Positions 16,118 through 32,481 of a stretch of DNA of 38,641 nucleotides are shown here, piece after piece. This DNA comes from a virus. Under the pieces are notes generated by a model that saw only the letters and a program-made list of their open reading frames with translations, was not told the origin of the DNA and did not search any database. The position numbers and the translations under genes were made by a program. Numbering within the stretch: the first letter of the stretch is position 1; the number at the start of each line of letters is the position of its first letter. The stretch spans positions 1 to 38,641 of the IMG/VR virus record IMGVR_UViG_3300042892_002737; one strand, 5' to 3'.

Positions 16118-18984
16118 TTAGGGCTTTATGCCTTTGTCAGAGAAATCACCATTGGTCCAGTAACCGCCTTGATAGCTTAATGGGAAAAAGAAGTTGGCAA
16201 AATCAGCTCCCGGACCGCCGGCATGAACTCCATCGCAGAATGCTTTTTTAAACACAGTTGATTGATAGTCACCTGCGGTCCAAGTGTCACCGGGATTAAT
16301 ATACGCTGGATTTGTTTTTAAGCATCTTCTGGTCCAATACTCTAATCCTGCAGTGTCAGGTTTTCTGTTTAAGCCATACACATCAAGCGTAACGTTAAAG
16401 TCTAATGTACCTATAGTGTTGGTTGCACTAGATTGAATAGCGACGCTATATTGCATGGTGTCGTTAATCCAAGAACCAGTAGACGATACAGATGAAATAG
16501 TGGTGGTGTTGCCTCCACCAAACGCGCCAGTACCGCTTAATTTGGTGATAACCATACCAACAGTTAATCCGGAATTTGTAGGACTGGCATCTGAACGAAC
16601 GGTCATATTAGTGTTTGCATTCGCGCTTACTATCGTGCCATAAAAAGTTAGAGGATATTGAAATCCTAATTTTATCTTGCTTAAGAACAATAAATTGGCT
16701 ATATTAATACCAAGCAATTTTTCTGTGTTGGTTAATCCATACTCTGCTGCCCAGTTATCGTATGTATATGCAATGGGTGCTATTTTTAAGTTGTTAGCTT
16801 GACCCCCCTCACCGGTTAATGTCACATCTGCTCCTAATCCATTGTCATTGGCATATGGAAAATATAGCAATCTATTAGGACCTCCCCTAATACTATCTAA
16901 ATCAGTGTACGAGAAGGGTACCGCATCGTACATAGCGTTTTTTACGCTACTGTTAATGATGAATTGCTTAGTTTCCGCAGGAGTAGCATCTGGGTTTAGT
17001 TGTAAGTATAGGGCAACCACGCCGGCCACCTGAGGACTAGCCATACTAGTTCCACTGATACATCGTTGCTTATAGTTTGCATTTTCGTTGTATGCATATA
17101 CTGGCAGGGTACTAGTGCTTGAAATATTAGTTGTTGCTACCCCTAGAGGCCATGCAGCAGTTATATTAGTACCAGGCGCCCATATGTCAACAAAAGGACC
17201 TCTGTTTGAATAACTAGCCGAACGTTCAAGTGCAGCAGTTTGTGCTAAATAGTCTACCGATCCTACTCTAATACTTTTATCCGAATACGGACTTCCAGAC
17301 CGATGGTACCTGGTCATTTGCGGCTGACCCACAGCTACCAAAGTTCTAACACTCCTAGAAAACGGAGCAGTGAATATGATACTACCTGCAACATTGCCTG
17401 CACTACTACTTGAGTTAATCGTAATTTGCGATGTGCTGTCAACTGAAACGATTGTACTAGTGGCACCCATTAAACCGGCCGCACCGCCTGTTTTGGTGAT
17501 AACCATACCGGCAGTTAATCCAGTAGTTGATGCAATTCCAGTGATAGTAGTTGTTTGGGTAGTACCAGTAATGGTTCCAAATAACGTTGTTGGATTAGTA
17601 GTCCTCATTATCCCAAAACTATTATAAGGTGGCCATATCTCTATCGCACTATCACTGACTACTCTGGTCACTTTGTAATAAATTGTATCGTGGGTGTACG
17701 TGCCAATGTTGCTAGGTATGGGTATGTACGGTATCAGTACTATCTCATCATCTACTTTAACAAGGGTACCCAAATTTGGCTCATTTATCACCATGCTACC
17801 CTCAGCAATATCATCAAGGTACTTCAGATAAATATTAGTATATTTGGTCAAAAATCCATCATTATAACTAGCACCAGTAGGAATGTCACCGTATAAGTTA
17901 TCGTTTCCGGCAGCAACACATACGTGTACCCCTGCATCAACTAAATCGTCCAGTTCAGCATCATATGCAATTGCACTGCCCATAGAATAAGTTCCCTTCA
18001 AGCGCAGATCATATTTGTCACGTAAGGTTGCTGCAGTATCTATATTGGATTTTGTCCAGCTTACCCCTTTATGAATGCCTCTGGTTACTGACAAAAGATT
18101 TCCAGACTCAGTGGAGTTTGCATTCCATGCATTAACCGGCCTTACCCAACTCATGTTTACTACCGTTGGTCTTTTTTTCCCAGTTACTGTATCTACTGGT
18201 TTATTCTCGTGCCACTGTCTCATAATAGCCATTCCCTGCAGGCCCGTATATCCAGTAAAGGTCTTAGTACCAATTTCATAGTCGGGTTGACCAAAATCTA
18301 TCTTCATCAGATATATTCTGGCATTTTTTGCCCAACCAAAAGTTTTACCCACGCTGGTACTGGCCACGTGGGTGCCGTGCCCATTAAAATCACGGTAGAA
18401 CAACGAGCTTTGTGTTTTATACCCACGGTCTACTCCATCTAATAGGCTCTCTTTAAGCCAATCTATTTGCTGTATCCTATTAATCCCATTAGCGTCTTGA
18501 AATTCTGGATGATCAAGTTCTATTCCAGAATCGTTAACTATGTAGTCTACCCCAGTTCCATCTAGATGATATGGGTAACCACTGGTACTAGGATTAGTAC
18601 CAGTGCCATATATGTTTGTAGGGAATGCACTGCGCAATAACCCCCAATTTTTGTAAGAACCTTGACCCCCAACTTTACTGTTTGTTGGTCTAATGAAGTT
18701 GCTGGTTTGTATATTGGATGGAACTACCACATCATCCGGCCCACCCTCAATAGAAAAAACCACAGCCAATACTCTACTGTCGTTTTTTAGTTCGTATGCT
18801 TCAGCATCGGTTAACAAGTAGAAAGTGTTTCTTGAACTGTGTGGTAACCACGTGGCAATAGCCACTGCTCGGTTGGGTATATGAGGAATATTATCAGTGA
18901 CAGTTTCCATGTCATGATAGAAGCTGTCATAGTCCACGCCCTTTTTAAGCGTTACTATGTATCTTCTTAGTGTTTGAGTTTCCA

Positions 18985-18985
<1 letters not shown>
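16118..18985 (-). CDS. Subtilisin-like (S8) serine protease with inserted beta modules
   Basis: The catalytic triad is complete: Asp in Y-I-V-N-D-S-G-I (near residue 151), His in G-H-G-T-H-V-A-S (near 204), Ser in S-G-T-S-M-A-S-P (near 647), with the oxyanion Asn in A-A-G-N-D-N (near 358). Total length is 955 residues. A roughly 75-residue Gly/Thr-rich module (G-L-T-A-G-M-V-I-T-K) is inserted between the oxyanion Asn and the Ser, and a related copy (G-L-T-V-G-M-V-I-T-K) follows the protease domain. The C-terminus (N-R-K-P-D-T-A-G-L-E-Y-W) resembles DUF4214. The ATG overlaps the stop of the 630-aa fibre by one base, with GGAGAG upstream. Being in the fibre operon, it is probably virion-borne and may cut host surface proteins or mature the fibres. 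Confidence 0.9.
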
Positions 18986-20877
<1,892 letters not shown>

Positions 20878-20994: not shown

Positions 20995-21444
20995 ATGTCA
21001 GTTACACTACAGAATTTAGAATCAGCACTGGCTGGTGAGAGCATGGCTCACATCAAGTATCGTTATTTTGCTAAACTAGCTCGTGCTGAGGGCTTTGAAG
21101 AAATTGCTCGTCATTTTGAGCATACAGCAGATCAGGAATTGCTGCATGCCTGGGGACATTTGGAATTGCTGGTTGGCAAGCCCAGTACTCGTGAATGCCT
21201 GGAAAAAGCAATTGAGGGTGAAACATACGAATTCACTCAGATGTATCCACAGTTCAAAGCCATCGCAGAACTGGAAGGCAATATGCATGCTGCCCAGATT
21301 GCCAAAGAGCAAATCACCGAAAGCCAAGCTCATGCTGAGCAATTTATGGCTGTTTTGAACAAAGCAGAAAAACGTTTTGCAGCACTGGCCAAAGTTGAAC
21401 AACGTCATGCTGCAGCCTATCAACAAGTATTGGAGACACTATGA
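20995..21444 (+). CDS. Rubrerythrin-type diiron protein lacking the rubredoxin domain
   Basis: The 149-residue four-helix protein shows the rubrerythrin ligand pattern: A-G-E-S-M-A-H-I-K-Y in helix A, Q-E-L-L-H-A-W in helix B, E-G-E-T-Y-E-F with M-Y-P-Q-F in helix C, and A-H-A-E-Q-F in helix D. Rubrerythrins reduce hydrogen peroxide in the cytoplasm. The usual C-terminal rubredoxin domain is absent, but a separate rubredoxin-like gene starts inside its stop codon (ATGA), so electron transfer is probably supplied in trans. A strong promoter and AAGGAG suggest high early expression. An alternative is a bacterioferritin-like storage role, but the motif order favours rubrerythrin. Confidence 0.88.
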   Translation: MSVTLQNLESALAGESMAHIKYRYFAKLARAEGFEEIARHFEHTADQELLHAWGHLELLVGKPSTRECLEKAIEGETYEFTQMYPQFKAIAELEGNMHAAQIAKEQITESQAHAEQFMAVLNKAEKRFAALAKVEQRHAAAYQQVLETL

Positions 21445-22596: not shown

Positions 22597-23160
22597 ATGA
22601 GCGTCCTGGCATTGGATATATCAGGGATACCAAGACAATGGATCTCTAACGAAAGCGCCATCACGTACCACGCTAAAAATTCAGTTGCTTGGAGCCTGGG
22701 CGAAGTTGTGGCCAAGTTCAGAGGTGGAATTCAGCGTGATGGTACAGCCAGTTACATTGAGTCACCCAGCATCATTGCAATCAGAGGCAATGGATTTGAT
22801 CCCAACAAACATGGTAAAGTTGCACTCAGCAACAGAACACTGTTTGGACGTGACCGAAATGTCTGTGCTTATTGTGGTGACAGCTTTCACAACCATCACC
22901 ACTTGTCACGTGACCACATTGTTCCAAAAAGCAAAGGTGGCACCAACACTTGGATGAATGTGGTCACTGCCTGCAAACCCTGTAACGGTAAAAAGGATGA
23001 CATGACACTGAAAGAAAGTGGCATGCAATTGCTTTACATTCCCTATAGGCCAAATCATTTTGAAAACATGATTTTACAAAATCGCAACATTCTGGCAGAC
23101 CAAATGGACTACTTGATGTCTGGCGTTCCCAAACACAGCAGAATATTGCGCACGACTTGA
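22597..23160 (+). CDS. HNH endonuclease
   Basis: The 187-residue protein has a C-terminal HNH nuclease: a zinc knuckle C-A-Y-C-G (about residues 89-93) paired with C-K-P-C-N, around the catalytic L-S-R-D-H-I-V-P-K-S-K-G-G-T-N-T-W-M-N. The N-terminal 80 residues (L-A-L-D-I-S-G-I-P and S-I-I-A-I-R-G) match those of free-standing HNH proteins in proteobacteria and phages, not IscB, since no RuvC motif is present. It may be a homing-type nuclease or serve phage DNA processing. GGGAG lies before the ATG. Its stop codon is inside the -35 box of the tRNA promoter behind it. Confidence 0.88.
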   Translation: MSVLALDISGIPRQWISNESAITYHAKNSVAWSLGEVVAKFRGGIQRDGTASYIESPSIIAIRGNGFDPNKHGKVALSNRTLFGRDRNVCAYCGDSFHNHHHLSRDHIVPKSKGGTNTWMNVVTACKPCNGKKDDMTLKESGMQLLYIPYRPNHFENMILQNRNILADQMDYLMSGVPKHSRILRTT

Positions 23161-23210: not shown

Positions 23211-23285
23211 CTGGCCGTAGTTAAATGGATATAACACTAGCCTTCTAAGCTTGCGTTCCAAGTTCGATTCTTGGCGGCTGGACCA
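23211..23285 (+). tRNA. tRNA-Arg(TCT)
   Basis: Acceptor CTGGCCG pairs with CGGCTGG (two G-U). The anticodon loop is CTTCTAA, the T arm is CCAAG-TTCGATT-CTTGG and CCA is encoded. The anticodon stem has one T-T mismatch. Confidence 0.9.
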
Positions 23286-23296
23286 AAGATTAAAAT

Positions 23297-23380
23297 GGGG
23301 TGGAAGCATCAATGGTGATGCAGTGGACTGTAAATCCGCCGCCTAAGGCATGACTGGTTCGATCCCAGTACACCCCACCA
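23297..23380 (+). tRNA. tRNA-Tyr(GTA)
   Basis: The anticodon arm is GTGGA-CTGTAAA-TCCGC with a long class II variable arm, as in bacterial tRNA-Tyr. CCA is encoded. The last acceptor pair is G-A, a mismatch. Confidence 0.9.
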
Positions 23381-23398
23381 AACAACACGGAGATAACA

Positions 23399-23560
23399 AT
23401 GCAATATAAAGTTATCAATGCAACATATGAGGAGTTTCACAAACAAGTTGCAACTTTGATAAGTGAAGGATGGGTACCTCAAGGGGGTGTCAGTGTGATA
23501 AGAGAATATATTACTGTTCCGACAACTTATTACTTTCAAGCTTTCGTCAAAAACACTTGA
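23399..23560 (+). CDS. DUF1737-like protein (53 aa)
   Basis: The pattern Y-K-V-I-N-A, then V-A-T-L-I-S-E-G-W-V-P-Q-G-G-V-S-V and a final strand is that of the small DUF1737 family (one helix packed on a three-stranded sheet). No biochemical role is known for the family. CGGAG lies before the ATG. The TGA stop forms part of the -35 box of the next promoter. Confidence 0.75.
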   Translation: MQYKVINATYEEFHKQVATLISEGWVPQGGVSVIREYITVPTTYYFQAFVKNT

Positions 23561-23585
23561 CGCTAATTCGTTTTGGGTGTATAAT
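23557..23585 (+). promoter_or_regulatory. Sigma-70 promoter, copy 1 of a duplicated cassette
   Basis: TTGACG-17-TATAAT. The sequence through the spacer and on to the GAGAAAAC before the gene is almost the same as at 23949, so promoter and leader were duplicated together. Confidence 0.85.
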
Positions 23586-23615
23586 AGCTTCATACACTGA
23601 GAAAACGGAGAAAAA

Positions 23616-23945
23616 ATGAACAACGAAATAGAACTTAATCGTCATTCAGCAGGCAAATTTGCTTGGTTCGCCGCACGTGATGCAAGGCAACGTAGTCTTA
23701 CTAACTCAACATTGTACACTGATGCACAAAAAGTAACAGCAGAACGAGTTAAATTGGGACTAGAAATATGCTACTCTGCAAAAGATATTTACATTGAGTA
23801 TCGCAAAAAGTTTATCTCTATCAAACTCAATCAGCCCACAGTGCGTGATCGCAAAGCTTTGGCGTTGTTAGAATCTGATTACGATAAATTTGGTTACGAA
23901 AAATGCAAGACTGCAGCGGGTGTTACTTATAGACTGTTTAAGTAA
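23616..23945 (+). CDS. Hypothetical protein (109 aa)
   Basis: This basic, helical protein is not recognised. It opens N-R-H-S-A-G-K-F-A-W-F-A-A-R-D-A-R-Q-R, then V-K-L-G-L-E-I-C-Y-S-A, and ends G-V-T-Y-R-L-F-K. Many Lys and Arg residues could fit nucleic-acid binding, which is only a guess. CGGAG precedes the ATG. It has its own strong promoter. Confidence 0.65.
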   Translation: MNNEIELNRHSAGKFAWFAARDARQRSLTNSTLYTDAQKVTAERVKLGLEICYSAKDIYIEYRKKFISIKLNQPTVRDRKALALLESDYDKFGYEKCKTAAGVTYRLFK

Positions 23946-23948
23946 CAC

Positions 23949-23977
23949 TTGACACTAATTCGTTTTGGGTGTATAAT
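23949..23977 (+). promoter_or_regulatory. Sigma-70 promoter, copy 2 of a duplicated cassette
   Basis: TTGACA-17-TATAAT, both boxes perfect. The spacer is identical in 16 or more of 17 bases to that at 23563-23579. Confidence 0.88.
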
Positions 23978-24010
23978 AGCTGTATAAACTGAGAAAACAA
24001 GGAGAAACAA

Positions 24011-24199
24011 ATGAGCAAAAATACTGAATTGGCTAAGCGTCTGCGTTGCAATATATTTGCAAATCGTGACACAGTAGATGAAGCATTGGCTTATGCTTAT
24101 GAAACACTTAAAAACAACCCCACTGGACTCACTGCGCTGTATGTAGTACTTAACACAGTGTGCAATGAAATTGAAGCAAACGAAAAAGAAGTTGCATAA
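24011..24199 (+). CDS. Small hypothetical protein (62 aa)
   Basis: An all-helical, acidic protein: an N-terminal K-R-L-R-C-N-I-F, a middle D-E-A-L-A-Y-A-Y-E-T-L and a final helix ending E-K-E-V-A. AAGGAG lies before the ATG. No family recognised. It is the last coding gene before the large RNA region. Confidence 0.65.
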   Translation: MSKNTELAKRLRCNIFANRDTVDEALAYAYETLKNNPTGLTALYVVLNTVCNEIEANEKEVA

Positions 24200-24203
24200 A
24201 CGG

Positions 24204-24232
24204 TTGACACAAAATCAGTAGTTTGCTATAAT
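24204..24232 (+). promoter_or_regulatory. Perfect sigma-70 promoter for tRNA-Glu and the large RNA
   Basis: TTGACA and TATAAT are perfect and 17 bases apart, just after the stop of the 62-aa gene. The predicted transcript passes an rrn-like boxA (24288), tRNA-Glu and then the structured region. Confidence 0.88.
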
Positions 24233-24287
24233 AGTGGTATTGAATCAAGCAGCAAGCAGCAAGCACCAAACAGTGCGCTGACATGAG

Positions 24288-24301
24288 TACTCTTTAACAA
24301 T
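24288..24301 (+). promoter_or_regulatory. rrn-type boxA antitermination element
   Basis: TACTCTTTAACAAT differs by a single base from the E. coli rRNA boxA (TGCTCTTTAACAAT). In rRNA operons boxA RNA loads NusB and S10 and lets polymerase cross long untranslated RNA without Rho termination. Here it lies about 55 bases after a strong promoter and before tRNA-Glu and more than 1 kb of non-coding sequence, where the same function is needed. The match is direct; the function is inferred. Confidence 0.65.
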
Positions 24302-24317
24302 TTAGAGCAGTAACAAT

Positions 24318-24392
24318 GTACCGTTAGACTTCTGGTGAGGTCATCACCCTTTCAAGGTGACTAGATGGGATCGTAACCCATACGGTATACCA
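24318..24392 (+). tRNA. tRNA-Glu(TTC)
   Basis: The acceptor GTACCGT pairs with ACGGTAT. The anticodon arm is TCACC-CTTTCAA-GGTGA, the T arm ATGGG-ATCGTAA-CCCAT (unusual loop), and CCA is encoded. Its 3' strand plus CCA is also one arm of a 19-bp helix with 24532-24550, so tRNA folding and that helix exclude each other. Confidence 0.85.
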
Positions 24393-25512
24393 TAGTAAAA
24401 CATATTAGTTGCCCTTGCAAGCAATTGCATTGAGGACTGCGGAATCCTGAACATACAGATTACCTAGAAAAGCGAGAAACAAATTGGAAACGATTTGCCA
24501 AGCGTAAGGCTGCGTCAGGCTGGTTCATTAGTATGTTTTACTATGGTATAGTCTACCAAAAGAACGTTCCAGCGTCACTGGATACTCTGACCCGGAGGAT
24601 GAGAAGTGCTATGACAAGCACGGGTGGTACACTTTAAACCGAAAGTGCGCTGGCAATGCGAGAACGGAACCTGTCGTGGAGAGGGTGGAGGCCGTGCGTG
24701 ATGAAAGACTAATTGGTGAGTGCAAACTTGCTGACCAAATTTCTGATACGGTATAATTACCTCCGGGGTTCGCAGAGCATTTAACTTGAGTTATGGCAAG
24801 CGGTCCATAGACGGGAGTGTAACCCGATAGATACAGAACATAAGTATCCAACGTGATGAGCCTTGTTTGACCGTAGAGTTTAGGCAAGAAACACATAACG
24901 AAACGGCAGGCGTTAAACGGGATTACAATCGCCTAGGTAATCAAGAATATTGGGGCATTGCGCCAGATGAGACTCTCCCTTGCATACGGAGTATAATGTG
25001 ATAAGTTGTATGCAGTCTACATACCTCGTCCTAGCAGATTCAGACGTTAAATGAATCTGCATATTGAAACACATTAATCTTGGGTAGTTTCGCCAAGTCT
25101 GACCGGCTTGGGTTTCCGCTATAAGATGCAAGGTAAACTAGTCCTCTCGTCAAGGTTCTTGCTAGTGTGTTTCAATATGGTATATCAGTTGTTAGTGAGT
25201 CATTCACGGGACTGGCGAAAGCACATCAAGACTCGGAATCTTGGACACTGACTACAGACGCAATGGTAGGTGCACCTGCTGTTGTTGATACACCATAATT
25301 AAGTGCTATAAGGTATGTGATCTGATCAATCACTATACGGGTCAAAGCCGCCGGCGACTGATCCTGATATAACTGCATCGGCTATGACTGGGAAGCACCC
25401 AACGTCTAAATTTGCATATAGCACTTAATTATGGTATAGCTTAATACAAGAGCAGTGGGAACACAGGTATCAACGCCTACCCATGAGTACAGGTGCAACT
25501 CCTGTTACCATA
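24386..25512 (+). ncRNA. Large structured non-coding RNA region (candidate giant ornate RNA)
   Basis: About 1.1 kb has no believable gene on either strand but many perfect helices. Long-range: 24386-24404 with 24532-24550 (19 bp), 25060-25076 with 25163-25179 (17 bp), 25293-25310 with 25417-25434 (18 bp) and 25177-25187 with 25287-25297 (one mismatch). Local hairpins: 24606/24617, 24630/24642, 24713/24734, 24750/24758, 24982/25008, 25034-25042/25052-25060 (9 bp) and 25227/25239. It follows a perfect promoter, boxA and tRNA-Glu, and ends in a tRNA-like fold. Size, phage origin and tRNA neighbourhood fit the GOLLD and ROOL classes of large bacterial RNA, but I cannot match a conserved core, so a new class is equally possible. 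Boundaries are approximate. Confidence 0.6.
25430..25512 (+). other. tRNA-like terminal structure without a normal anticodon arm
   Basis: TATGGTA and TACCATA form a perfect 7-bp acceptor-like stem. It is followed inside by a D-like arm (GCTT/GAGC) and a perfect T-like arm (ACAGG-TGCAACT-CCTGT). The space for the anticodon arm holds about 35 nt that do not fold into a 5-bp stem with a 7-nt loop, and no CCA follows. The 5' strand also belongs to the 18-bp helix of the preceding RNA, so it could switch. Confidence 0.5.
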
Positions 25513-25532
25513 ACATTATTTGATTTGTGCAG

Positions 25533-25760
25533 CTATTTGTTGAACCTGCGAACATGTGTCCATATGGGAGCGTCAAGCACATGCGTAGTACCCTCATCGC
25601 CACCTATACGTAATCGTAGTTCGGGGTCTACTCCCTGATCAACGTGTTTGGATACAAAACGAGCAAGAGTGGCGTCACTGGTGTATATTAACATAACGCC
25701 CTGATCATTGCACACGGTGTACATGGTAATACCAAATCTGTCTCTGGATATGTCTAGCAT
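25533..25760 (-). CDS. Possible hypothetical protein on the opposite strand (75 aa)
   Basis: The only good frame in 25513-25795 lies on the minus strand, against the tRNA direction. The peptide is protein-like: M-L-D-I-S-R-D-R-F-G-I-T-M-Y-T-V-C, then L-I-Y-T-S-D-A-T-L-A-R-F-V. No Shine-Dalgarno is clear before the ATG and no family is recognised. It could be a gene moved in with the surrounding RNA elements. Confidence 0.42.
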   Translation of the reverse strand: MLDISRDRFGITMYTVCNDQGVMLIYTSDATLARFVSKHVDQGVDPELRLRIGGDEGTTHVLDAPIWTHVRRFNK

Positions 25761-25798
25761 CACATATTTATTATGGTACAGCGTTATATAATGAGCAT

Positions 25799-25873
25799 AT
25801 ATTGAAACACATTAGTTCTTGGGGTTGTTCCCAAGATAATTGTATCCAATGGATCCCTAGTGTGTTTCAATAT
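25799..25873 (+). ncRNA. Leader hairpin fused to tRNA-Ala, copy of a large-RNA helix
   Basis: A 17-bp helix (25799-25815 with 25857-25873) encloses a 7-bp hairpin (TCTTGGG/CCCAAGA) and a small second hairpin. It ends exactly one base before the first base of tRNA-Ala. The same helix sequence (ATATTGAAACACATTA and its partner), followed by CTTGGG, is found in the large RNA at 25061 and 25163. It may guide tRNA 5' processing or be a shortened duplicate of the RNA element. Confidence 0.6.
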
Positions 25874-25947
25874 GGGCTGGTAGTATAATGGGATTACGGT
25901 AGCTTTGCAAGCTATTTATAGGAGTTCGATTCTCCTCCGGTCCACCA
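25874..25947 (+). tRNA. tRNA-Ala(TGC)
   Basis: Acceptor GGGCTGG pairs with CCGGTCC. The anticodon loop is TTTGCAA, the T arm AGGAG-TTCGATT-CTCCT and CCA is encoded. The expected G3-U70 identity pair for alanine is present. Confidence 0.92.
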
Positions 25948-25953
25948 TTAAAT

Positions 25954-26029
25954 GGAGTAGTAGCATAGCGGCAAATGCATCTCCCTGTCTAGGAGACCAT
26001 CGTGGGTTCGAGTCCCATCTACTTCGCCA
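25954..26029 (+). tRNA. tRNA-Asp(GTC)
   Basis: Acceptor GGAGTAG pairs with CTACTTC, discriminator G, encoded CCA. The anticodon arm is TCTCC-CTGTCTA-GGAGA. Confidence 0.93.
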
Positions 26030-26050
26030 AACAAACTGATAGGAAATAAC

Positions 26051-26191
26051 ATGGCCAATGTAAAGCAGGGCAATTTGACAAGACCACCACAGTGGTGGAA
26101 ACACTTGAAAGATTGGAAACGAGTATTTTGGAAAACAGAGCGTCAAGCGCACAAAGATGCAATCAAAAAAGACTGTCCCAATGGACAGTGA
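26051..26191 (+). CDS. Small basic conserved phage protein (46 aa)
   Basis: The 46-residue protein is very basic, with R-P-P-Q-W-W-K-H-L-K-D-W-K-R-V-F-W-K-T-E-R-Q-A-H-K. The Trp/Lys-rich helix recurs in small proteins of aquatic myophages and suits nucleic-acid or membrane contact; no function is known. AGGAAA lies before the ATG. The next 89 bases (26192-26280) hold nothing I can identify. Confidence 0.7.
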   Translation: MANVKQGNLTRPPQWWKHLKDWKRVFWKTERQAHKDAIKKDCPNGQ

Positions 26192-26280
26192 CAAGAGTGG
26201 TAAACGAATGCAGGTGAAACTTTAAGATGAAGCAATTAACAGCGTAACCTAAAGTCGGCACCAAATTCTATGGAGAGTAT

Positions 26281-26577
26281 ATGTCAGACGAAAACGATAA
26301 GTTACAACACAGTACCCGACTGCATCAAAAAGAAAAAAAGATCAAGCGTCAAGTGCAGTTGGCCAAGAACTATTCATACCATAAACTCGGTTCTACCATG
26401 AATGATTGGAAGTATCTGACACAACCTCACCGCAACCACAAGACTGCAATCTTTAACTGCGGTGACCCCAAATGTTCAATGTGTATGAATCCCAGAAAAT
26501 CTACGGGTGAAGAATCTATGCAAGAGCGTAAACACAAACAAGATAAATTATACCGGGATGATGGCAAGGGGGATTAA
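26281..26577 (+). CDS. Conserved phage protein with G-D-P-K-C-x-M-C motif (98 aa)
   Basis: A charged protein whose centre carries H-R-N-H-K-T-A-I-F-N-C-G-D-P-K-C-S-M-C-M-N-P-R-K. The three cysteines (and nearby His) could bind zinc. The motif is recurrent in small proteins of T4-like aquatic phages, function unknown. GGAGAG lies before the ATG. Its stop interlocks with the stop of the opposing gene. Confidence 0.75.
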   Translation: MSDENDKLQHSTRLHQKEKKIKRQVQLAKNYSYHKLGSTMNDWKYLTQPHRNHKTAIFNCGDPKCSMCMNPRKSTGEESMQERKHKQDKLYRDDGKGD

Positions 26578-26852
26578 TCTTCCTCGTCTTTAACTTTGCC
26601 CCAATCACTTTTTGCACGAATAGCAAATGCCAGTTCACGCATACGCCCGAACTCTGGTGAGGACTTTTTATGTGGGCCTGATTTTTTAAGAGCATTGTAC
26701 GCTTTCAATAGCTCGGCTTTGCTCTTACCTGCATACTTGCCACGTTCTTCTGGGCTAACCACTGTGGGTTCTCCCCATTTTTCAACCAGCTGCTGATCGG
26801 CCATTTCGCTCAGAATGTCTAGGTACTTGCGTAAGAATTGTTGGTTGCTCAT
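26574..26852 (-). CDS. Conserved phage hypothetical protein (92 aa)
   Basis: The ATG at 26852 follows AAGGAG on the minus strand, so I prefer it to upstream codons. The protein is helical, with Y-L-D-I-L-S-E-M at the start, K-S-K-A-E-L-L-K-A-Y-N-A-L-K-K-S-G-P-H-K-K in the middle and M-R-E-L-A-F-A-I-R-A-K near the end. The last part is a recurrent block in aquatic phages. It is one of few minus-strand genes in the tRNA region. Confidence 0.78.
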   Translation of the reverse strand: MSNQQFLRKYLDILSEMADQQLVEKWGEPTVVSPEERGKYAGKSKAELLKAYNALKKSGPHKKSSPEFGRMRELAFAIRAKSDWGKVKDEED

Positions 26853-26918
26853 ATTGTAACTCCTTTGATAATACTTAATATGATGCACTTGCCCATTACT
26901 ACTACTTAAGTATGATAG

Positions 26919-26947
26919 TTGACACTAAATGCACAATCAAGTATAAT
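26919..26947 (+). promoter_or_regulatory. Perfect-consensus sigma-70 promoter
   Basis: TTGACA-17-TATAAT, serving the 69-aa gene and the tRNA-Ile/tRNA-Met pair behind it. Confidence 0.88.
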
Positions 26948-26975
26948 ACACATATACAAATTTAAAGAGAGCACA

Positions 26976-27185
26976 ATGTTTAAGGTATATTGGACTGACC
27001 ATCAAGACGTATCGTATGGCAAACAATTTGAAAAAATGACAGATGCCCTGAATTTCACACAAGAATTGCGCAACGTGCACCAGCGTAGGTTTGTTACCAT
27101 GGTGAGCGAGAACCCCGACTGTACCAATCTGTTGGGTGTGAGTGAAGCCAATGCAGACTACAATTGGAAAAAACGCAGAGCATAA
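26976..27185 (+). CDS. Conserved phage hypothetical protein (69 aa)
   Basis: The start at 26976 follows AGAGAG and lies 28 bases after the -10 box. The protein opens F-K-V-Y-W-T-D, has F-T-Q-E-L-R-N-V and R-F-V-T-M-V-S-E-N-P, and ends N-W-K-K-R-R-A. A small alpha/beta fold is likely. No function recognised. Confidence 0.72.
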   Translation: MFKVYWTDHQDVSYGKQFEKMTDALNFTQELRNVHQRRFVTMVSENPDCTNLLGVSEANADYNWKKRRA

Positions 27186-27190
27186 ACAAT

Positions 27191-27265
27191 ACCCGGTTAG
27201 CTCAGTGGTAGAGCAGCAGCTTGATAAGCTGTTGGTCGCAAGTTCAAATCTTGCACCGGGTACCA
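27191..27265 (+). tRNA. tRNA-Ile(GAT)
   Basis: Acceptor ACCCGGT pairs perfectly with ACCGGGT, the anticodon arm is GCAGC-TTGATAA-GCTGT and CCA is encoded. Confidence 0.93.
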
Positions 27266-27269
27266 TTAT

Positions 27270-27345
27270 GGTAGAGTAGCATAGTGGCCAATGCAGCACC
27301 TTCATACGGTGCCCATCGTGAGTTCGAGTCTCACCTCTACTACCA
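27270..27345 (+). tRNA. tRNA-Met(CAT), elongator type
   Basis: Acceptor GGTAGAG pairs with CTCTACT, the anticodon arm is GCACC-TTCATAC-GGTGC and CCA is encoded. It lacks initiator features, since the first acceptor pair forms (G-U). Confidence 0.88.
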
Positions 27346-27447
27346 AAATAATGAATATCATTTGCTATTAGGAATAAATAATAACATCAGTGTGCCGCAA
27401 GGGCATTGGTATATAAACAATCTTGCTTAACTTAAAGGAGAAAAATT

Positions 27448-29358
27448 ATGTCAAAGATTATCGGTATCGATTTGGGTACTACAAATTCATGTGTAGCAAT
27501 CATAGATGGAAAAACAGCAAAGGTCATTGAGAATTCAGAGGGTGCGAGAACCACTCCCAGTATCATTGCCTATATGCCAGACGGTGAAATTTTGGTGGGT
27601 GCTGGCGCCAAGCGTCAAGCAGTTACCAACGCCAAGAACACGATTTACGCAAGTAAGCGATTGATTGGCAGAAAGTTCAACGAAAAAGCAGTACAAAAAG
27701 ACATTAACCTAATGCCATTTACCATTGTAGAAGCAGACAATGGCGATGCATGGGTACAGGTAAACGACCGGCGCCTGGCACCACCGCAGATCAGTGCAGA
27801 AGTATTGCGCAAGATGAAAAAAACGGCTGAAGATTTCTTGGGTGAGCCTGTTACTAAAGCAGTTATCACAGTGCCCGCCTACTTCAACGACAGTCAACGT
27901 CAAGCAACCAAAGATGCAGGCACCATTGCCGGTCTTGAAGTGTTGCGTATCATCAACGAACCCACTGCAGCAGCATTGGCCTATGGTGTTGATAAAGCAG
28001 ACAAGGCCGATCGTAAAATTGCAGTGTATGACTTGGGCGGCGGCACATTTGATATCAGTATCATTGAGATTGCCAACGTAGAAGGCGACAAGCAGTTTGA
28101 AGTACTCAGCACCAATGGTGACACATTCTTGGGTGGTGAAGACTTTGACCAACGCATTATGGATTTCATCATTGATGAATTCAAACGAGAATCAGGTGTT
28201 GATCTGAGCAAAGACGTACTTGCACTGCAGCGTTTAAAAGATGCAGCAGAAAAGGCCAAGATTGAATTGAGTAGTAGTAACCAAACAGATGTTAACTTGC
28301 CATATATCACGGCTGATGCCACTGGTCCTAAACATCTCAATGTTAAAATCACTCGTGCGAAATTGGAAAGCATTGTTGAAGAACTGGTCATGCGCAGCAT
28401 TGAGCCATGTAAGACTGCTATTGCTGATGCTGGCATCAGTGTTGCTGACATTGATGAAGTTATCTTGGTTGGTGGTATGACTCGTATGCCCATGGTAGTA
28501 GAGCAAGTGGAAAAGTTCTTTGGTCGGTCACCTCGCAAAGATGTGAATCCAGATGAAGCAGTGGCCGTGGGCGCAGCTATTCAGGGACAAGTGTTGGGTG
28601 GTGGACGTTCAGACGTACTGTTACTTGACGTAACTCCACTGAGTTTGGGTATTGAGACTCTGGGTGGTGTAATGACCAAGATGATCCGAAAAAATACAAC
28701 TATCCCAACCAAGCACAGTCAGACTTATAGCACAGCAGATCATAACCAGCCTGGTGTCAGCATCAAGGTCTATCAGGGCGAGCGTGAAATTGTAGTGGGC
28801 AACAAGGCCCTGGGCGAGTTCATGTTAGAAGGTATTGAGCCAGCACCCAAAGGCGTACCACAAATTGAAGTGACGTTTGATATTGATGCCAATGGTATTC
28901 TTGATGTTAAGGCAGTGGACAAGAAAACAGGCAAAGAAAAGCAAATCACCATCAAGGCCAGTTCAGGGTTGAGTGAAGAAGAAATTGAACGCATGGTCAA
29001 AGATGCTGAATTGAATGCTGAGGAAGACAAGAAGATTGTGGATTTAGTATTAGCTCGCAATCAACTGGATGGCAGCATTGGCAACTTAGAAAAGAAAGTG
29101 GAAGAACTGGGTGACTATGTTCCCACTGAAGACAAGACAGCCATTGAACAGGCTATCACACAAGCAAAAGCCACTGCCGCTGGTGATAACAAAGATGACA
29201 TGGACAAGGCAGTGGAAACCCTACAAGAATGGTATCAAAAAACTATTCCTTGGGAAGGTGAGAAGCGCAACAAAGAAATGCCTGCGGGAGATCCAAGTCA
29301 ACAAGGTGATCCAAACGTAGTAGATGCAGAAGTCAAGGAAACAAAAGAAGCTGTATAA
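27448..29358 (+). CDS. dnaK: DnaK, Hsp70 chaperone (complete)
   Basis: The 636-residue protein is full length (E. coli DnaK has 638). The nucleotide-binding domain begins [13 protein letters not shown] and has D-L-G-G-G-T-F-D near residue 195. The interdomain linker [12 protein letters not shown] lies near 390, then the substrate-binding sheet and helical lid. It ends V-D-A-E-V-K-E-T-K, like bacterial DnaK. No DnaJ or GrpE gene is in the window, so it would use the host's or others elsewhere. It probably aids folding of virion proteins or stress survival of infected cells. GGAG precedes the ATG. It sits among tRNA genes and was probably taken from a host long ago, as its codon use matches the phage. 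Confidence 0.97.
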
Positions 29359-29365
29359 GTTTCAA

Positions 29366-29440
29366 GCGGGTATAGCTCAGGGGTAGAGCGAAACATTGCC
29401 AATGTTTAGGTCGGGAGTTCGAAACTCCCTACCCGCTCCA
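29366..29440 (+). tRNA. tRNA-Gly(GCC)
   Basis: Acceptor GCGGGTA pairs with TACCCGC, discriminator T, encoded CCA. The anticodon arm is AAACA-TTGCCAA-TGTTT. It begins seven bases after dnaK and is probably on its transcript. Confidence 0.93.
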
Positions 29441-29447
29441 AATTAAA

Positions 29448-29524
29448 CCGTCTTTAGCTCAATTGGATAGAGCGTCGGGCTTCGAACCCGAAGGTTGTGG
29501 GCTCGAATCCTGCAAGACGGACCA
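29448..29524 (+). tRNA. tRNA-Arg(TCG)
   Basis: Acceptor CCGTCTT pairs perfectly with AAGACGG, the anticodon arm is TCGGG-CTTCGAA-CCCGA and CCA is encoded. Confidence 0.92.
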
Positions 29525-29570
29525 GTATTAAAATAATCAGTAGCTGGCGTTGTCAGTTAAATAACTATAC

Positions 29571-29660
29571 GGAAATGTGGCAGAGTCCGGTTTATTGCAG
29601 CAGTCTTGAAAACTGCCGAGTGTTAAAGCTCCGTGAGTTCGAATCTCACCGTTTCCGCCA
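29571..29660 (+). tRNA. tRNA-Ser(TGA)
   Basis: Acceptor GGAAATG pairs with CGTTTCC, the anticodon arm is GCAGT-CTTGAAA-ACTGC. It has a long class II variable arm, discriminator G and encoded CCA. Confidence 0.92.
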
Positions 29661-29679
29661 GAATATGGTAAAATAACAG

Positions 29680-29708
29680 TTGACATTAATTGGCAAATCA
29701 TGTATAAT
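29680..29708 (+). promoter_or_regulatory. Perfect-consensus sigma-70 promoter
   Basis: TTGACA-17-TATAAT ahead of the 72-aa membrane protein and the following tRNA-Ser and tRNA-Asn. Confidence 0.88.
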
Positions 29709-29733
29709 TGTTTCTTTAGTTGAAAGGCCTAAT

Positions 29734-29952
29734 ATGAATCTGAAATTAAAAGCAATTGGTATCACCCTAGGATTTTTTGTAATGACTGCTACAATAGGAG
29801 CAGTGGCGGCACATTTACCAGTACAGGCGATTGGCGCACTGGTGTGCATTGGTGTAGCATATTTGTTTTACACGCTGGTGTTGGGACAGTTGGAAATTAC
29901 CGAATCCCTTAAAAATATTGGTAACAAAAACACAGAAGTAAAAACCAAGTAG
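29734..29952 (+). CDS. Small two-helix membrane protein (72 aa)
   Basis: Start at 29734 follows GAAAGG. Two membrane helices (about residues 6-28 and 31-50) are followed by a polar tail with Q-L-E-I-T-E-S-L-K-N and a Lys-rich end. No family name recognised; such small inner-membrane proteins are frequent in this part of aquatic myophage genomes. Confidence 0.72.
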   Translation: MNLKLKAIGITLGFFVMTATIGAVAAHLPVQAIGALVCIGVAYLFYTLVLGQLEITESLKNIGNKNTEVKTK

Positions 29953-29958
29953 TAATCT

Positions 29959-30052
29959 GGAGACGTGGCCGAGTGGTCGAAGGCACTTCCCTGCTAAGGA
30001 AGCATATGGGCTTAAACCTGTATCGTGAGTTCAAATCTCACCGTCTCCGCCA
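29959..30052 (+). tRNA. tRNA-Ser(GCT)
   Basis: Acceptor GGAGACG pairs with CGTCTCC, the anticodon arm is CTTCC-CTGCTAA-GGAAG. It has a long variable arm, discriminator G and encoded CCA. Confidence 0.92.
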
Positions 30053-30076
30053 AGAACATGCAGTAAGTAAATATAT

Positions 30077-30152
30077 TGGCTAATAGCTCAGTCGGTAGAG
30101 CAAATGACTGTTAATCATTAGGTCCGTGGTTCGAGCCCACGTTAGCCAGCCA
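30077..30152 (+). tRNA. tRNA-Asn(GTT)
   Basis: Acceptor TGGCTAA pairs perfectly with TTAGCCA, discriminator G, encoded CCA. The anticodon arm is AATGA-CTGTTAA-TCATT. Confidence 0.93.
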
Positions 30153-30172
30153 AATATTATAAAGAGGAAACT

Positions 30173-30379
30173 ATGGCAGCAAAAAAAGTATTGACACGTG
30201 ATTCAATGAAAACTAAAACAGGCAAGACACGTTTGGGACCATTGAATGTAGCACAGTTGACCAAGTTGTTGGAAGGTGCTCGCAAGAAACATGCGCCTAA
30301 AATCAAACGTGCTATCGCTGAACGAACAGTCACACAACAAGTTTCAACAAAAGTTTCTGCTGAGGCAGTAGCAGAGTAA
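30173..30379 (+). CDS. Small basic conserved phage protein (68 aa)
   Basis: The protein begins A-A-K-K-V-L-T-R-D-S-M-K-T-K-T-G-K-T-R-L-G-P-L and continues as a Lys/Arg-rich helix, then an Ala/Val-rich end. The opening is a conserved block in small proteins of aquatic phages. The charge suggests nucleic-acid binding; function unknown. GAGG lies before the ATG. Confidence 0.72.
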   Translation: MAAKKVLTRDSMKTKTGKTRLGPLNVAQLTKLLEGARKKHAPKIKRAIAERTVTQQVSTKVSAEAVAE

Positions 30380-30389
30380 ATAAAATAAC

Positions 30390-30465
30390 GCCCCCTTAGC
30401 TCATTTGGTAGAGCAACTGATTTGTAATCAGTAGGTGACCTGTTCGAATCGGGTAGGGGGCACCA
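30390..30465 (+). tRNA. tRNA-Thr(TGT)
   Basis: Acceptor GCCCCCT pairs perfectly with AGGGGGC, the anticodon arm is ACTGA-TTTGTAA-TCAGT and CCA is encoded. Confidence 0.93.
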
Positions 30466-30473
30466 AACACTAT

Positions 30474-30701
30474 ATGTCATCATCTTCAGCCAAATTAGCA
30501 ACCCAATTAATTGAGAGAGTTAAGAATCTCAAGAAGCACACTGTCATGCTAAAAATAGATGGATTCACTGGACATGGACCAGTGCCATTTGATCTCAAGA
30601 TCACCAAAGGTTTGGCCACTGTAACACTGCTGGCAACTGATATGCTTGATGCCAAGCGACAAGTGAGTGCATATTTTGGCAGTGATGATTGGGTAGATTA
30701 G
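30474..30701 (+). CDS. Small hypothetical protein (75 aa)
   Basis: An alpha/beta mini-protein: a helix with K-L-A-T-Q-L-I-E-R-V-K-N-L, then strands T-V-M-L-K-I-D-G and F-D-L-K-I-T, and an acidic end. The ATG lies nine bases after tRNA-Thr and no Shine-Dalgarno is clear, so translation may start inefficiently. Not recognised. Confidence 0.6.
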   Translation: MSSSSAKLATQLIERVKNLKKHTVMLKIDGFTGHGPVPFDLKITKGLATVTLLATDMLDAKRQVSAYFGSDDWVD

Positions 30702-30713
30702 TTAACAATAGAT

Positions 30714-30742
30714 TTGACAATTAACCAGTAAGCATGTATAAT
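30714..30742 (+). promoter_or_regulatory. Perfect-consensus sigma-70 promoter
   Basis: TTGACA-17-TATAAT followed by AGCTGTATTGAATG, a downstream stretch close to that behind the promoters at 23157 and 24204. It drives the tRNA block 30779-31378. Confidence 0.88.
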
Positions 30743-30778
30743 AGCTGTATTGAATGAATTAAGTAGTAAACAGAGTTT

Positions 30779-30855
30779 GTCTCTATAGCTCAATTGGTTA
30801 GAGCATCCGACTCATAATCGGCAGGTTCCAGGTTCAAGTCCAGGTGGAGGCACCA
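30779..30855 (+). tRNA. tRNA with anticodon CAT (Met or Ile2)
   Basis: Acceptor GTCTCTA pairs with TGGAGGC, the anticodon loop is CTCATAA and CCA is encoded. As another elongator-type CAT tRNA exists at 27270, this one may be the lysidine-modified tRNA-Ile2 that reads ATA. The sequence alone does not settle it. Confidence 0.85.
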
Positions 30856-30864
30856 AGTAGCAAA

Positions 30865-30938
30865 GCGGGATTAGTTTAATGGCAAAACAGCAGATTTCCA
30901 ATCTTCGGTCGAGAGTTCGATTCTCTCATTCCGCTCCA
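30865..30938 (+). tRNA. tRNA-Gly(TCC)
   Basis: Acceptor GCGGGAT pairs with ATTCCGC, the anticodon loop is TTTCCAA, discriminator T, encoded CCA. The anticodon stem has one mismatch. Confidence 0.9.
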
Positions 30939-30949
30939 AAGTTTTAAAC

Positions 30950-30964
30950 GTTCTTTAGACAATT
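30950..30964 (+). promoter_or_regulatory. Weak boxA-like element before the tRNA-Leu pair
   Basis: GTTCTTTAGACAATT resembles rrn boxA with one extra base in the core. It lies before tRNA-Leu(TAG) and the intron-bearing tRNA-Leu(TAA). The match is much weaker than at 24288. Confidence 0.3.
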
Positions 30965-30977
30965 CAAGTAGTACGAT

Positions 30978-31060
30978 GCGCATATGGCGAAATTGGTAGA
31001 CGCGCCAGATTTAGGTTCTGGTCTCAACGGGTGGGGGTTCGAGTCCCTCTATGCGCACCA
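30978..31060 (+). tRNA. tRNA-Leu(TAG)
   Basis: Acceptor GCGCATA pairs perfectly with TATGCGC, the anticodon arm is CCAGA-TTTAGGT-TCTGG. It has a class II variable arm and encoded CCA. Confidence 0.92.
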
Positions 31061-31081
31061 AAGATTTACAGTAGAATGTAT

Positions 31082-31378
31082 GCCCGAATGATGGAATAGG
31101 TAGACATAGCAGACTTGAGAGTAAAATTTGAGTGCCCTGGGGGAAATCCTAGGAGTAGAATTCGTCAAATTCGGTGAACGCTTTAAAATGCCAATACCGA
31201 GCGAAGCTAAGTAAGAAATTACTTTGAACGTGTAGAGACTAGACGGCGAACATCTAAGGTAGCAATACTATGATGAAGGTATAGTCCAGACCGCAAACTG
31301 AAAAGGTAGCGAAAGCTATAGTGGTAAGAAAATCTGCCGGCGCGAGCCGTCCCGGTTCAAGTCCGGGTTCGGGTACCA
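31082..31378 (+). tRNA. tRNA-Leu(TAA) interrupted by a group I intron
   Basis: Exons 31082-31116 and 31329-31378 join into a complete class II tRNA: acceptor GCCCGAA with TTCGGGT, anticodon arm GCAGA-CTTAAAA-TCTGC and encoded CCA. The joined loop reads anticodon TAA (leucine). The break lies between U34 and A35 of the anticodon, the same site used by the tRNA-Leu(UAA) intron of cyanobacteria and plastids. The 5' exon ends in U and the intron ends in G, as group I splicing requires. Confidence 0.93.
31117..31328 (+). other. Group I intron (212 nt, no reading frame)
   Basis: Core elements appear in order: GCCAATACCGAGC (P4/Q region), AGAGACTAGACGG (P7/R region), AAGGTATAGTCC (S region) and GGTAGCGAAAGCT, a hairpin closed by a GNRA loop as in P9. 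Their sequence and spacing follow the tRNA-Leu(UAA) introns of cyanobacteria. It carries no endonuclease; the nearest homing-type gene is the HNH at 22597. At 212 nt it is among the small group I introns and is probably self-splicing. Confidence 0.92.
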
Positions 31379-31397
31379 GATTATAATAAATAGATAT

Positions 31398-31577
31398 ATG
31401 AAATTTAACATTTATGTAAACAGTATGTTTTACAGGTCACTGGACTTGGGAGATGTAGAAAAGTACAATCCCAAGACTATCACTGATATCGTATTTGCCG
31501 ACAGGGATGCAGGTCGTATTCCTGATAGTTTTAATACCAGTCAGGGCTTGTCAATTCGTATTGAAAAAGTAATTTAA
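31398..31577 (+). CDS. Small hypothetical protein (59 aa)
   Basis: The 59-residue protein opens K-F-N-I-Y-V-N-S-M-F-Y-R-S and has D-I-V-F-A-D-R-D-A-G-R-I and L-S-I-R-I-E-K at the end, a beta-rich mini-fold. No Shine-Dalgarno is obvious before the ATG; the A/T-rich TAATAAATAGATAT upstream could be a promoter -10 region. Not recognised. Confidence 0.55.
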   Translation: MKFNIYVNSMFYRSLDLGDVEKYNPKTITDIVFADRDAGRIPDSFNTSQGLSIRIEKVI

Positions 31578-31586
31578 CCAATTAAT

Positions 31587-31662
31587 GCATCGTTAGCTCA
31601 GTTGGTAGAGCGTCGCCTTTACACGGCGAATGTCGGCGGTTCGAGCCCGTCACGATGTACCA
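31587..31662 (+). tRNA. tRNA-Val(TAC)
   Basis: Acceptor GCATCGT pairs with ACGATGT (first pair G-U), the anticodon arm is TCGCC-TTTACAC-GGCGA and CCA is encoded. Confidence 0.93.
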
Positions 31663-31686
31663 TTCACCCTAACAGAAGAAAACACA

Positions 31687-31923
31687 ATGAACAAGATATA
31701 CGGACTTGATGGCATGGACGGCAGAACATCATCATTAGCTGCCAAACAAATTGGCGGCAAAGGTGGATTGTTTGATTTGGTGCTGGTGGCCAGTATCAGA
31801 GTAAGAGAACTTAAAAAAGGCCATGCTCCCAAAATAAACACTGGTCATGGCATCACCGTAACAGCACTGTGTGAAATTGAACAGGGTTTTATTGGTAGAG
31901 ATTATCTACGCAAATTAAAGTAA
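31687..31923 (+). CDS. RNA polymerase omega subunit-like protein
   Basis: The 78-residue protein holds the omega core: F-D-L-V-L-V-A-S-I-R-V-R-E-L-K-K-G (bacterial omega has F-x-L-V-L-x-A-x-x-R-A-R-x-L), and later V-T-A-L-C-E-I-E-Q-G-F-I (bacterial A-L-x-E-I-x-x-G-x-I). The N-terminal 20 residues differ from cellular RpoZ. Omega binds the beta-prime subunit and supports polymerase assembly and ppGpp response. A phage copy could replace host omega and alter promoter choice. There is only a weak purine-rich site before the ATG. It lies between tRNA-Val and tRNA-Trp. Confidence 0.78.
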   Translation: MNKIYGLDGMDGRTSSLAAKQIGGKGGLFDLVLVASIRVRELKKGHAPKINTGHGITVTALCEIEQGFIGRDYLRKLK

Positions 31924-31931
31924 TAACATAA

Positions 31932-32007
31932 GGCTCTCTAGTTCATGTTGGCAGAACATCGGTCTCCAAAACCGAAGAGCGCGGATCGTCACCGTGGAGA
32001 GTCGCCA
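31932..32007 (+). tRNA. tRNA-Trp(CCA)
   Basis: Acceptor GGCTCTC pairs with GAGAGTC, discriminator G, encoded CCA. The anticodon arm is TCGGT-CTCCAAA-ACCGA. Confidence 0.92.
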
Positions 32008-32014
32008 AAACAAT

Positions 32015-32092
32015 GCATCAGTGGCAGAGAGGTCCAATGCACGGGACTGCAAATCCTGAAAACCACAGGTTCAAATCCTGTCTGATGCTCCA
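32015..32092 (+). tRNA. tRNA-Cys(GCA)
   Basis: Acceptor GCATCAG pairs perfectly with CTGATGC, discriminator T, encoded CCA. The anticodon arm is CGGGA-CTGCAAA-TCCTG. Confidence 0.92.
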
Positions 32093-32129
32093 AGTGCAGG
32101 TAGCAACACATTAACATAAAGGAAAAATC

Positions 32130-32399
32130 ATGCAAGTAAGCGCAAGTCATATCTTAGTAGAAACAGCAGAACAAGTGAATCAATTGAAGGCACAGATTCA
32201 AGCAGGCGAATCATTCAGTGAATTGGCCAGAAAAATCTCCAAGTGCCCCAGTGGTGGCAATGGTGGTAGTCTGGGTACATTTGGCGAAGGTCAAATGGTC
32301 AAGCCTTTTCAGGATGCAGCATTTGCACTAGAAGTAGGTGGATTGAGTGAGCCTGTCCAAACACAATTTGGATATCATTTGATTCAACGTACTGCCTAA
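32130..32399 (+). CDS. Parvulin-type peptidyl-prolyl isomerase
   Basis: The 89-residue protein is a minimal PpiC/parvulin domain: S-A-S-H-I-L-V at the start, F-S-E-L-A-R-K-I-S-K-C-P-S, G-G-N-G-G-S-L-G-T-F-G-E-G-Q-M-V, F-Q-D-A-A-F-A-L and a final F-G-Y-H-L-I. Parvulins speed cis/trans change at proline bonds and so assist folding in the cytoplasm; no signal peptide is present. AAAGGA precedes the ATG. Together with DnaK it gives the phage two folding helpers, which suits its very large fibres. Confidence 0.95.
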   Translation: MQVSASHILVETAEQVNQLKAQIQAGESFSELARKISKCPSGGNGGSLGTFGEGQMVKPFQDAAFALEVGGLSEPVQTQFGYHLIQRTA

Positions 32400-32406
32400 G
32401 CACAAT

Positions 32407-32481
32407 CGCGGGATAGAGAAGTAGTATCTCGTTTGGCTCATAACCAAAAGGTCGCTGGTGCGAATCCAGCTCCCGCAACCA
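32407..32481 (+). tRNA. Initiator tRNA-fMet(CAT)
   Basis: C1 faces A72 unpaired, the hallmark of bacterial initiators, next to GCGGGA/TCCCGC. The anticodon loop is CTCATAA and CCA is encoded. The anticodon stem TTTGG/CCAAA has only two of the usual three G-C pairs. Confidence 0.9.

Follow-up and report, generated by a model that had tools for sequence, protein, structure and literature searches.

A predicted group I intron splitting a phage tRNA-Leu(UAA) gene, and its relatives among phages and bacteria

In cyanobacteria and plastids, the tRNA-Leu(UAA) gene is interrupted by a group I intron between U34 and A35 of the anticodon (PMC4476775, PMC4033280). Alpha-, beta- and gammaproteobacterial tRNA-Leu(UAA) introns, identified in this analysis, occupy the same site. 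In a 2014 review, all of the phage group I introns then known were located in protein genes, despite the many tRNA genes of phages (PMC3984707). In 2017, a 'tRNA-Stop' with a 2.5-kb insert was reported from Vibrio phage pVa5 as the first intron-bearing phage tRNA; its authors call it a possible artefact, and it was not reported as a group I intron (PMC5746245). The huge-phage paper (PMC7162821) and the paper on Agrobacterium phage Atu_ph07 make no mention of introns. Searches of open-licence papers turned up no account of a group I intron in any phage tRNA, and an earlier report may exist.

The locus described here lies in the IMG/VR virus record IMGVR_UViG_3300042892_002737, a linear fragment of 38,641 bases that was analyzed over its whole length (the window). 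Like the cyanobacterial and plastid trnL intron (PMC4476775, PMC4033280), the window intron is small, contains no ORF and interrupts the same tRNA at the same U34|A35 site, but its host is a phage; the likeness is one of site and description. With the proteobacterial tRNA introns (those of Azoarcus tRNA-Ile and Agrobacterium tRNA-Arg, and the tRNA-Leu(UAA) introns above) it has in common core blocks, a minimal architecture, GTAGAGACTAGACGG around P7 and GNRA loops on P2 and P9. The phage introns nevertheless differ from the proteobacterial ones in forming a branch of their own, in being shorter and A+T-richer, and in being decoupled from their exons. The phage introns of protein genes (T4 td, Twort and Bastille-type) are likewise group I ribozymes residing in phages, and some relatives carry HNH homing endonucleases, whereas the host gene in the window is a tRNA.

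The window encodes a 1806-aa tail spike/fibre protein, a tail fibre assembly protein, a baseplate-like protein and ribonucleotide reductase subunits (closest to Xanthomonas phage X1, 60 %). A rubrerythrin-like protein (20995-21444) and a 961-aa protein with a subtilase domain (16118-19003) adjoin the tail spike genes. The split gene is held in an array of about 20 tRNA genes (23211-32481, + strand), interspersed with small genes and a DnaK gene. The latter codes for a full-length DnaK/Hsp70 homologue (636 aa, 27448-29358), a protein also carried by huge phages, and near it are a PPIC-type peptidyl-prolyl isomerase (32130-32399) and a weak Rpb6/omega-like protein (31630-31923). A weak tRNA at 23297-23377 (35.2 bits, Rfam) was unreported by ARAGORN and is 84-87 % identical in the related contigs L008 and L012. 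At the edge of the array there is a free-standing HNH endonuclease (22597-23160, + strand), with 68-73 % amino acid identity in six related contigs; it is a possible, though speculative, mobility partner of the window intron.

When introns were allowed, ARAGORN called a tRNA-Leu(taa) at exactly 31082-31378; default ARAGORN (no introns) missed this gene. The 5' exon (31082-31116, 35 nt) ends in GCAGACTT (C32 U33 U34), and the 3' exon (31329-31378) starts with A35 (AAAATCTGC) and includes a long variable arm and an encoded CCA. The 212-nt intron between them (31117-31328) has G as its last base; these parts, and all helices given below, are on the + strand. When the exons were joined in silico, ARAGORN recognized a complete 85-nt tRNA-Leu(taa) with its encoded CCA, and all exon stems are intact. 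A sequence-only reading had proposed the same split gene, which is confirmed by these coordinates and by the complete spliced product. It had also equated the insertion point, exactly between U34 and A35 (the classical trnL site), with that of cyanobacteria and plastids, as is borne out by the ARAGORN exons and the literature (PMC4476775, PMC4033280). In the larger genes of the window, UUA makes up 145 of 547 Leu codons, and UUA and UUG are the two commonest; the tRNA presumably supplies UUA decoding. Phage tRNAs may replace host tRNAs cleaved by anticodon nucleases (PMC10264068), and an intron within the anticodon could in principle protect the precursor tRNA from such nucleases, which is a guess.

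Rfam model RF00028 matches positions 31113-31309 over its full length (model positions 1-253 of 253) with 59.2 bits against a gathering score of 50, and with E-values of 1.1e-12 (window) and 9.3e-15 (short stretch). A group I covariance model had been suggested as a check in the sequence-only reading, and the general one, RF00028, gives this result. The splice-site rules of group I introns are also followed, as U(-1) pairs with G in P1 and the final intron base is G. P1 (31113-31133) is formed by exon ACTT (31113-31116) and the internal guide GAGT (31130-31133), with the U.G pair at the 5' splice site. This U.G pair was found in 46 of 46 viral homologues, and three of the four P1 pairs are identical across all 46 sequences.

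The group I helices P1-P9 (55 pairs) were written by hand on the window sequence, and pairs were counted in a MAFFT alignment of the 46 viral homologues, the window among them. P3 (31161-31166 with 31245-31250, span 31161-31250) encloses P4 (31171-31175/31196-31200), P5 (31180-31181/31190-31191), P6 (31201-31203/31229-31231) and P6a (31209-31214/31219-31224). P7, the helix of the guanosine site (31237-31241 with 31282-31286, span 31237-31286), crosses P3 as in the group I pseudoknot. P8 (31251-31254/31272-31275) and P9 (31290-31294/31321-31325, span 31290-31325) follow in the same fold and alignment, and a P9b stem (31307-31310/31315-31318) is closed by a GAAA tetraloop. Standard pairs occupy 96.1 % of 2390 cells, a percentage that is favoured by drawing the fold on one of the 46 sequences; two-sided changes, which are not favoured in this way, occur at 31 of the 55 pairs (364 cells). 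The covariation score was 0.374, compared with 0.044-0.078 when the partners were slid by 1-3 columns, and it was unreached by any shuffle. P3, P4, P6, P7 and P8 are paired in 100 %, 99.1 %, 100 %, 99.6 % and 100 % of cells, respectively, with two-sided changes in each (at four of the six pairs in P3). The model match, the splice-site rules and the covariation together uphold the earlier claim that a group I intron splits this phage tRNA gene. The intron is far beyond chance, because its site and core recur in more than 100 other contigs and its fold is held by covariation. From the fold and splice-site rules it probably self-splices as a group I ribozyme. We assume a likeness to the Azoarcus tRNA-Ile intron in core and architecture and, on this and on anatomy, take the intron to be IC3-like.

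When databases were scanned with a pattern for the intron core (P7 region) and the 3' exon junction, at least 118 IMG/VR viral contigs and at least 119 GTDB genome contigs matched; both counts are lower bounds, not frequencies, and the pattern used for the GTDB genomes is of the proteobacterial type. Alpha- and gammaproteobacteria make up most of the bacterial matches listed; the rest include Bacteroidota and Acidobacteriota. Among the fetched loci, ARAGORN modelled 94 viral and 79 bacterial split Leu(UAA) genes. A 735-kb uncultured phage, with 77.7 % over the intron, and Agrobacterium phage Atu_ph07 give the nearest matches among public phage records. Each has a split tRNA-Leu(UAA) gene, which is unannotated in Atu_ph07. 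The sequence-only reading had regarded an intron in a phage tRNA as unusual, and this view is not supported, such introns being present in the viral contigs, in huge-phage records and in Atu_ph07. The family is common and, it appears, undescribed.

Plasmids of Bradyrhizobium and Mycetohabitans carry the same intron type at the same tRNA-Leu site. Split tRNA-Leu(UAA) genes were observed in conjugative or mobilisable plasmids and a megaplasmid (L222, L223 and L224), and one plasmid copy, in a record filed as E. coli, lies beside an IS6 transposase. Putative group I introns in other tRNAs were noted in eight viral contigs (L162, L169, L157, L161, L187, L209, L213 and L159), in Arg(UCU), Asn, Ala(UGC), Lys, Thr, Ser(UGA) and a CAU-anticodon tRNA; they always lie after U or at CAU, and the ARAGORN isotype labels are uncertain. 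The 484-kb huge phage LR756508.1 (L006) has two consecutive split genes, tRNA-Lys(UUU) and tRNA-Arg(UCU), with group I-like inserts (1323-1591 and 1722-1973). Genes labelled by ARAGORN as 'Tyr(ata)', 'Ser(aga)' and, in some cases, 'Phe(gaa)' and 'Stop(tta)' are Leu(UAA) with the splice site a few bases off. Because the labels are partly wrong, counts of split genes per isotype are rough.

The closest relative of the window intron is in viral contig L208 (92 % identical). At least the best 25 relatives are all viral (92 % down to 77 %), and the best bacterial intron, in a sample of mostly proteobacteria, is 71 % identical. The intron tree was drawn from 131 distinct introns and 228 columns; the sequences are short, the bootstrap did not settle, and the bacterial sample was gathered with one pattern. 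In this tree, most of the distinct viral introns (54 of 59) cluster in a single branch dominated by viruses, with moderate support (81/94); it includes one Bacteroidetes MAG contig, and the window intron lies deep within it. Alphaproteobacterial introns form a separate branch (95/89). The virus/bacterium label changes 7 times on the tree, compared with 43 in shuffles. The AU test allows a single clade of the main 54 viral introns (p-AU 0.40) but weakly rejects one of all 59 (p-AU 0.033), which suggests that a few of them were acquired separately. The virus-dominated branch could be biased, because phage and bacterial introns differ in G+C (0.41 vs 0.56). With these reservations, the tree suggests that the phage tRNA introns are long resident in phages and not recent host copies.

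The phylogeny proposed in the sequence-only reading was obtained for a set of phage and mostly proteobacterial introns, with most viral introns in their own branch. A core signature of the cyanobacterial type matched five viral contigs, all of them chance hits in coding DNA. RF00028 does match in Synechococcus elongatus. The proposed link between the phage intron and the cyanobacterial one is their common insertion site.

The histories of introns and exons were also compared. In viral pairs above 70 % intron identity, the intron was more conserved than the exons in 84-90 % of pairs; in bacterial pairs this was so in 0-29 %, and the exons were mostly more conserved, as expected of shared descent. 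AU tests reject the exon tree on the intron data (p 1e-40) and the intron tree on the exon data (p 4e-4). L190 and L355 have introns that are 97 % identical and exons that are 55 % identical, the variable arm being long in the L190 tRNA and short in the L355 tRNA. Intronless viral tRNA-Leu(UAA) genes with 99-100 % identical exons were found for intron-bearing ones (L360/L643 over 80 nt, L394/L628 and L402/L643), and L211 matches the intronless L594 across the flanks (82 % over 319 nt). The tree conflict, together with these intron-plus and intron-minus twins, means that the intron comes and goes and changes partners. Patchy presence combined with intron/exon conflict, a criterion for mobile introns, is therefore seen in the viral intron family, and these comparisons indicate that the intron circulates among phage UAA-tRNA genes. 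The earlier idea that tRNA introns travel is supported in spirit by the conflicting histories and the two kinds of allele. Rapid change in phage tRNA exons, or recombination of tRNA bodies, could account for part of the conflict between exons and introns.

A short variable arm (class I shape) was seen in 23 of 79 viral intron-bearing UAA-anticodon tRNAs (L105, L190, L207, L355, L356, L387 and others) and in none of 71 bacterial ones. It would be odd for a tRNA that reads UUA to lack the long arm seen in leucine tRNAs.

For the window copy, intron and exon identities to its two nearest relatives are 92 % vs 83 % and 91 % vs 71 %. An intronless twin of its exons was not found in the contigs compared (best exon identity 82 %), and the intron, having no ORF, does not encode a homing endonuclease of its own as mobile introns may. 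For these two reasons, mobility is shown for the relatives and not for the window copy. About a dozen longer relatives inserted at this site, phage as well as bacterial, contain HNH ORFs in either orientation. Examples are L004 (868-1654, LR756511.1), L031, L066, L173, L237 and L251, where the HNH ORFs lie within tRNA-Leu(UAA) introns of 480-810 nt.

We give a probability of about 0.9 to the explanation that a group I ribozyme interrupts a functional phage tRNA-Leu(UAA) and is carried from phage to phage, and maintained there, as a mobile passenger of tRNAs with a UAA anticodon, as judged from the sequence comparisons. The locus might instead be a degenerate remnant, a tRNA pseudogene with an intron that no longer splices, and the window does depart slightly from its relatives by eye: C.C replaces the third P5 pair and there is a G.U in P9. 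Such decay is very improbable, however, when the exon stems and the encoded CCA are intact, every core pair of the window intron is standard, and a compensated C-G to G-C swap in P6 is common to ten sequences (the window and nine relatives). It is also highly unlikely that the phage recently captured an intron-bearing tRNA-Leu gene from a proteobacterial or cyanobacterial host. Many proteobacteria and some plasmids do carry the same intron type at this site, but the 25 closest introns are viral, the best bacterial one is below them in a sample that covers part of bacterial diversity and no cyanobacteria, and the window lies deep in the virus-dominated branch.

Strictly vertical descent in one phage lineage, with a slow intron, fast tRNA exons and no mobility, is rather unlikely as well, even if it finds some footing near the window. 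The contigs nearest to the window share the HNH gene (68-73 % aa) and other tRNAs (75-92 % nt), so part of the similarity to them is ordinary kinship. It is opposed by nearly identical introns shared between tRNA classes (one with a long, the other with a short variable arm), by near-identical exons with and without the intron, and by the AU rejection in both directions. Vertical descent is contradicted for the intron family, and the window's own small clade may still fit it.

If the preferred explanation of a functional, mobile passenger is correct, guanosine would attack the bond 3' of U34, which would be held by the P1 helix of exon and guide. The freed 3' OH of U34 would then attack after the final G and join the exons into a UAA anticodon loop. 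Comparison of the loci suggests that the intron persists and spreads among phages in UAA-anticodon tRNA genes, with the anticodon arm as the likely target of its movement. The intron could move by homing, driven by HNH endonucleases that longer relatives encode or that act from other places, or it could reverse-splice and then recombine.

A group I intron at the trnL site has long been known; what appears new is its wide presence in phage tRNA genes, as a separate branch and with mobility. Split phage tRNA genes are a class skipped by default tRNA finders, as seen for the window gene and the unannotated gene of Atu_ph07. We propose tentatively, at somewhat below even odds, that tRNA group I introns propagate themselves in phages as a long-lived reservoir separate from the introns of bacteria, that they cross between unrelated UAA-anticodon tRNA bodies by recognition of the anticodon arm, and that this reservoir may be a source of the sporadic tRNA introns on chromosomes and plasmids of bacteria. 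How tRNA introns at identical sites came to be scattered over bacteria is an old question, and phage tRNA introns would offer a concrete vehicle for it.
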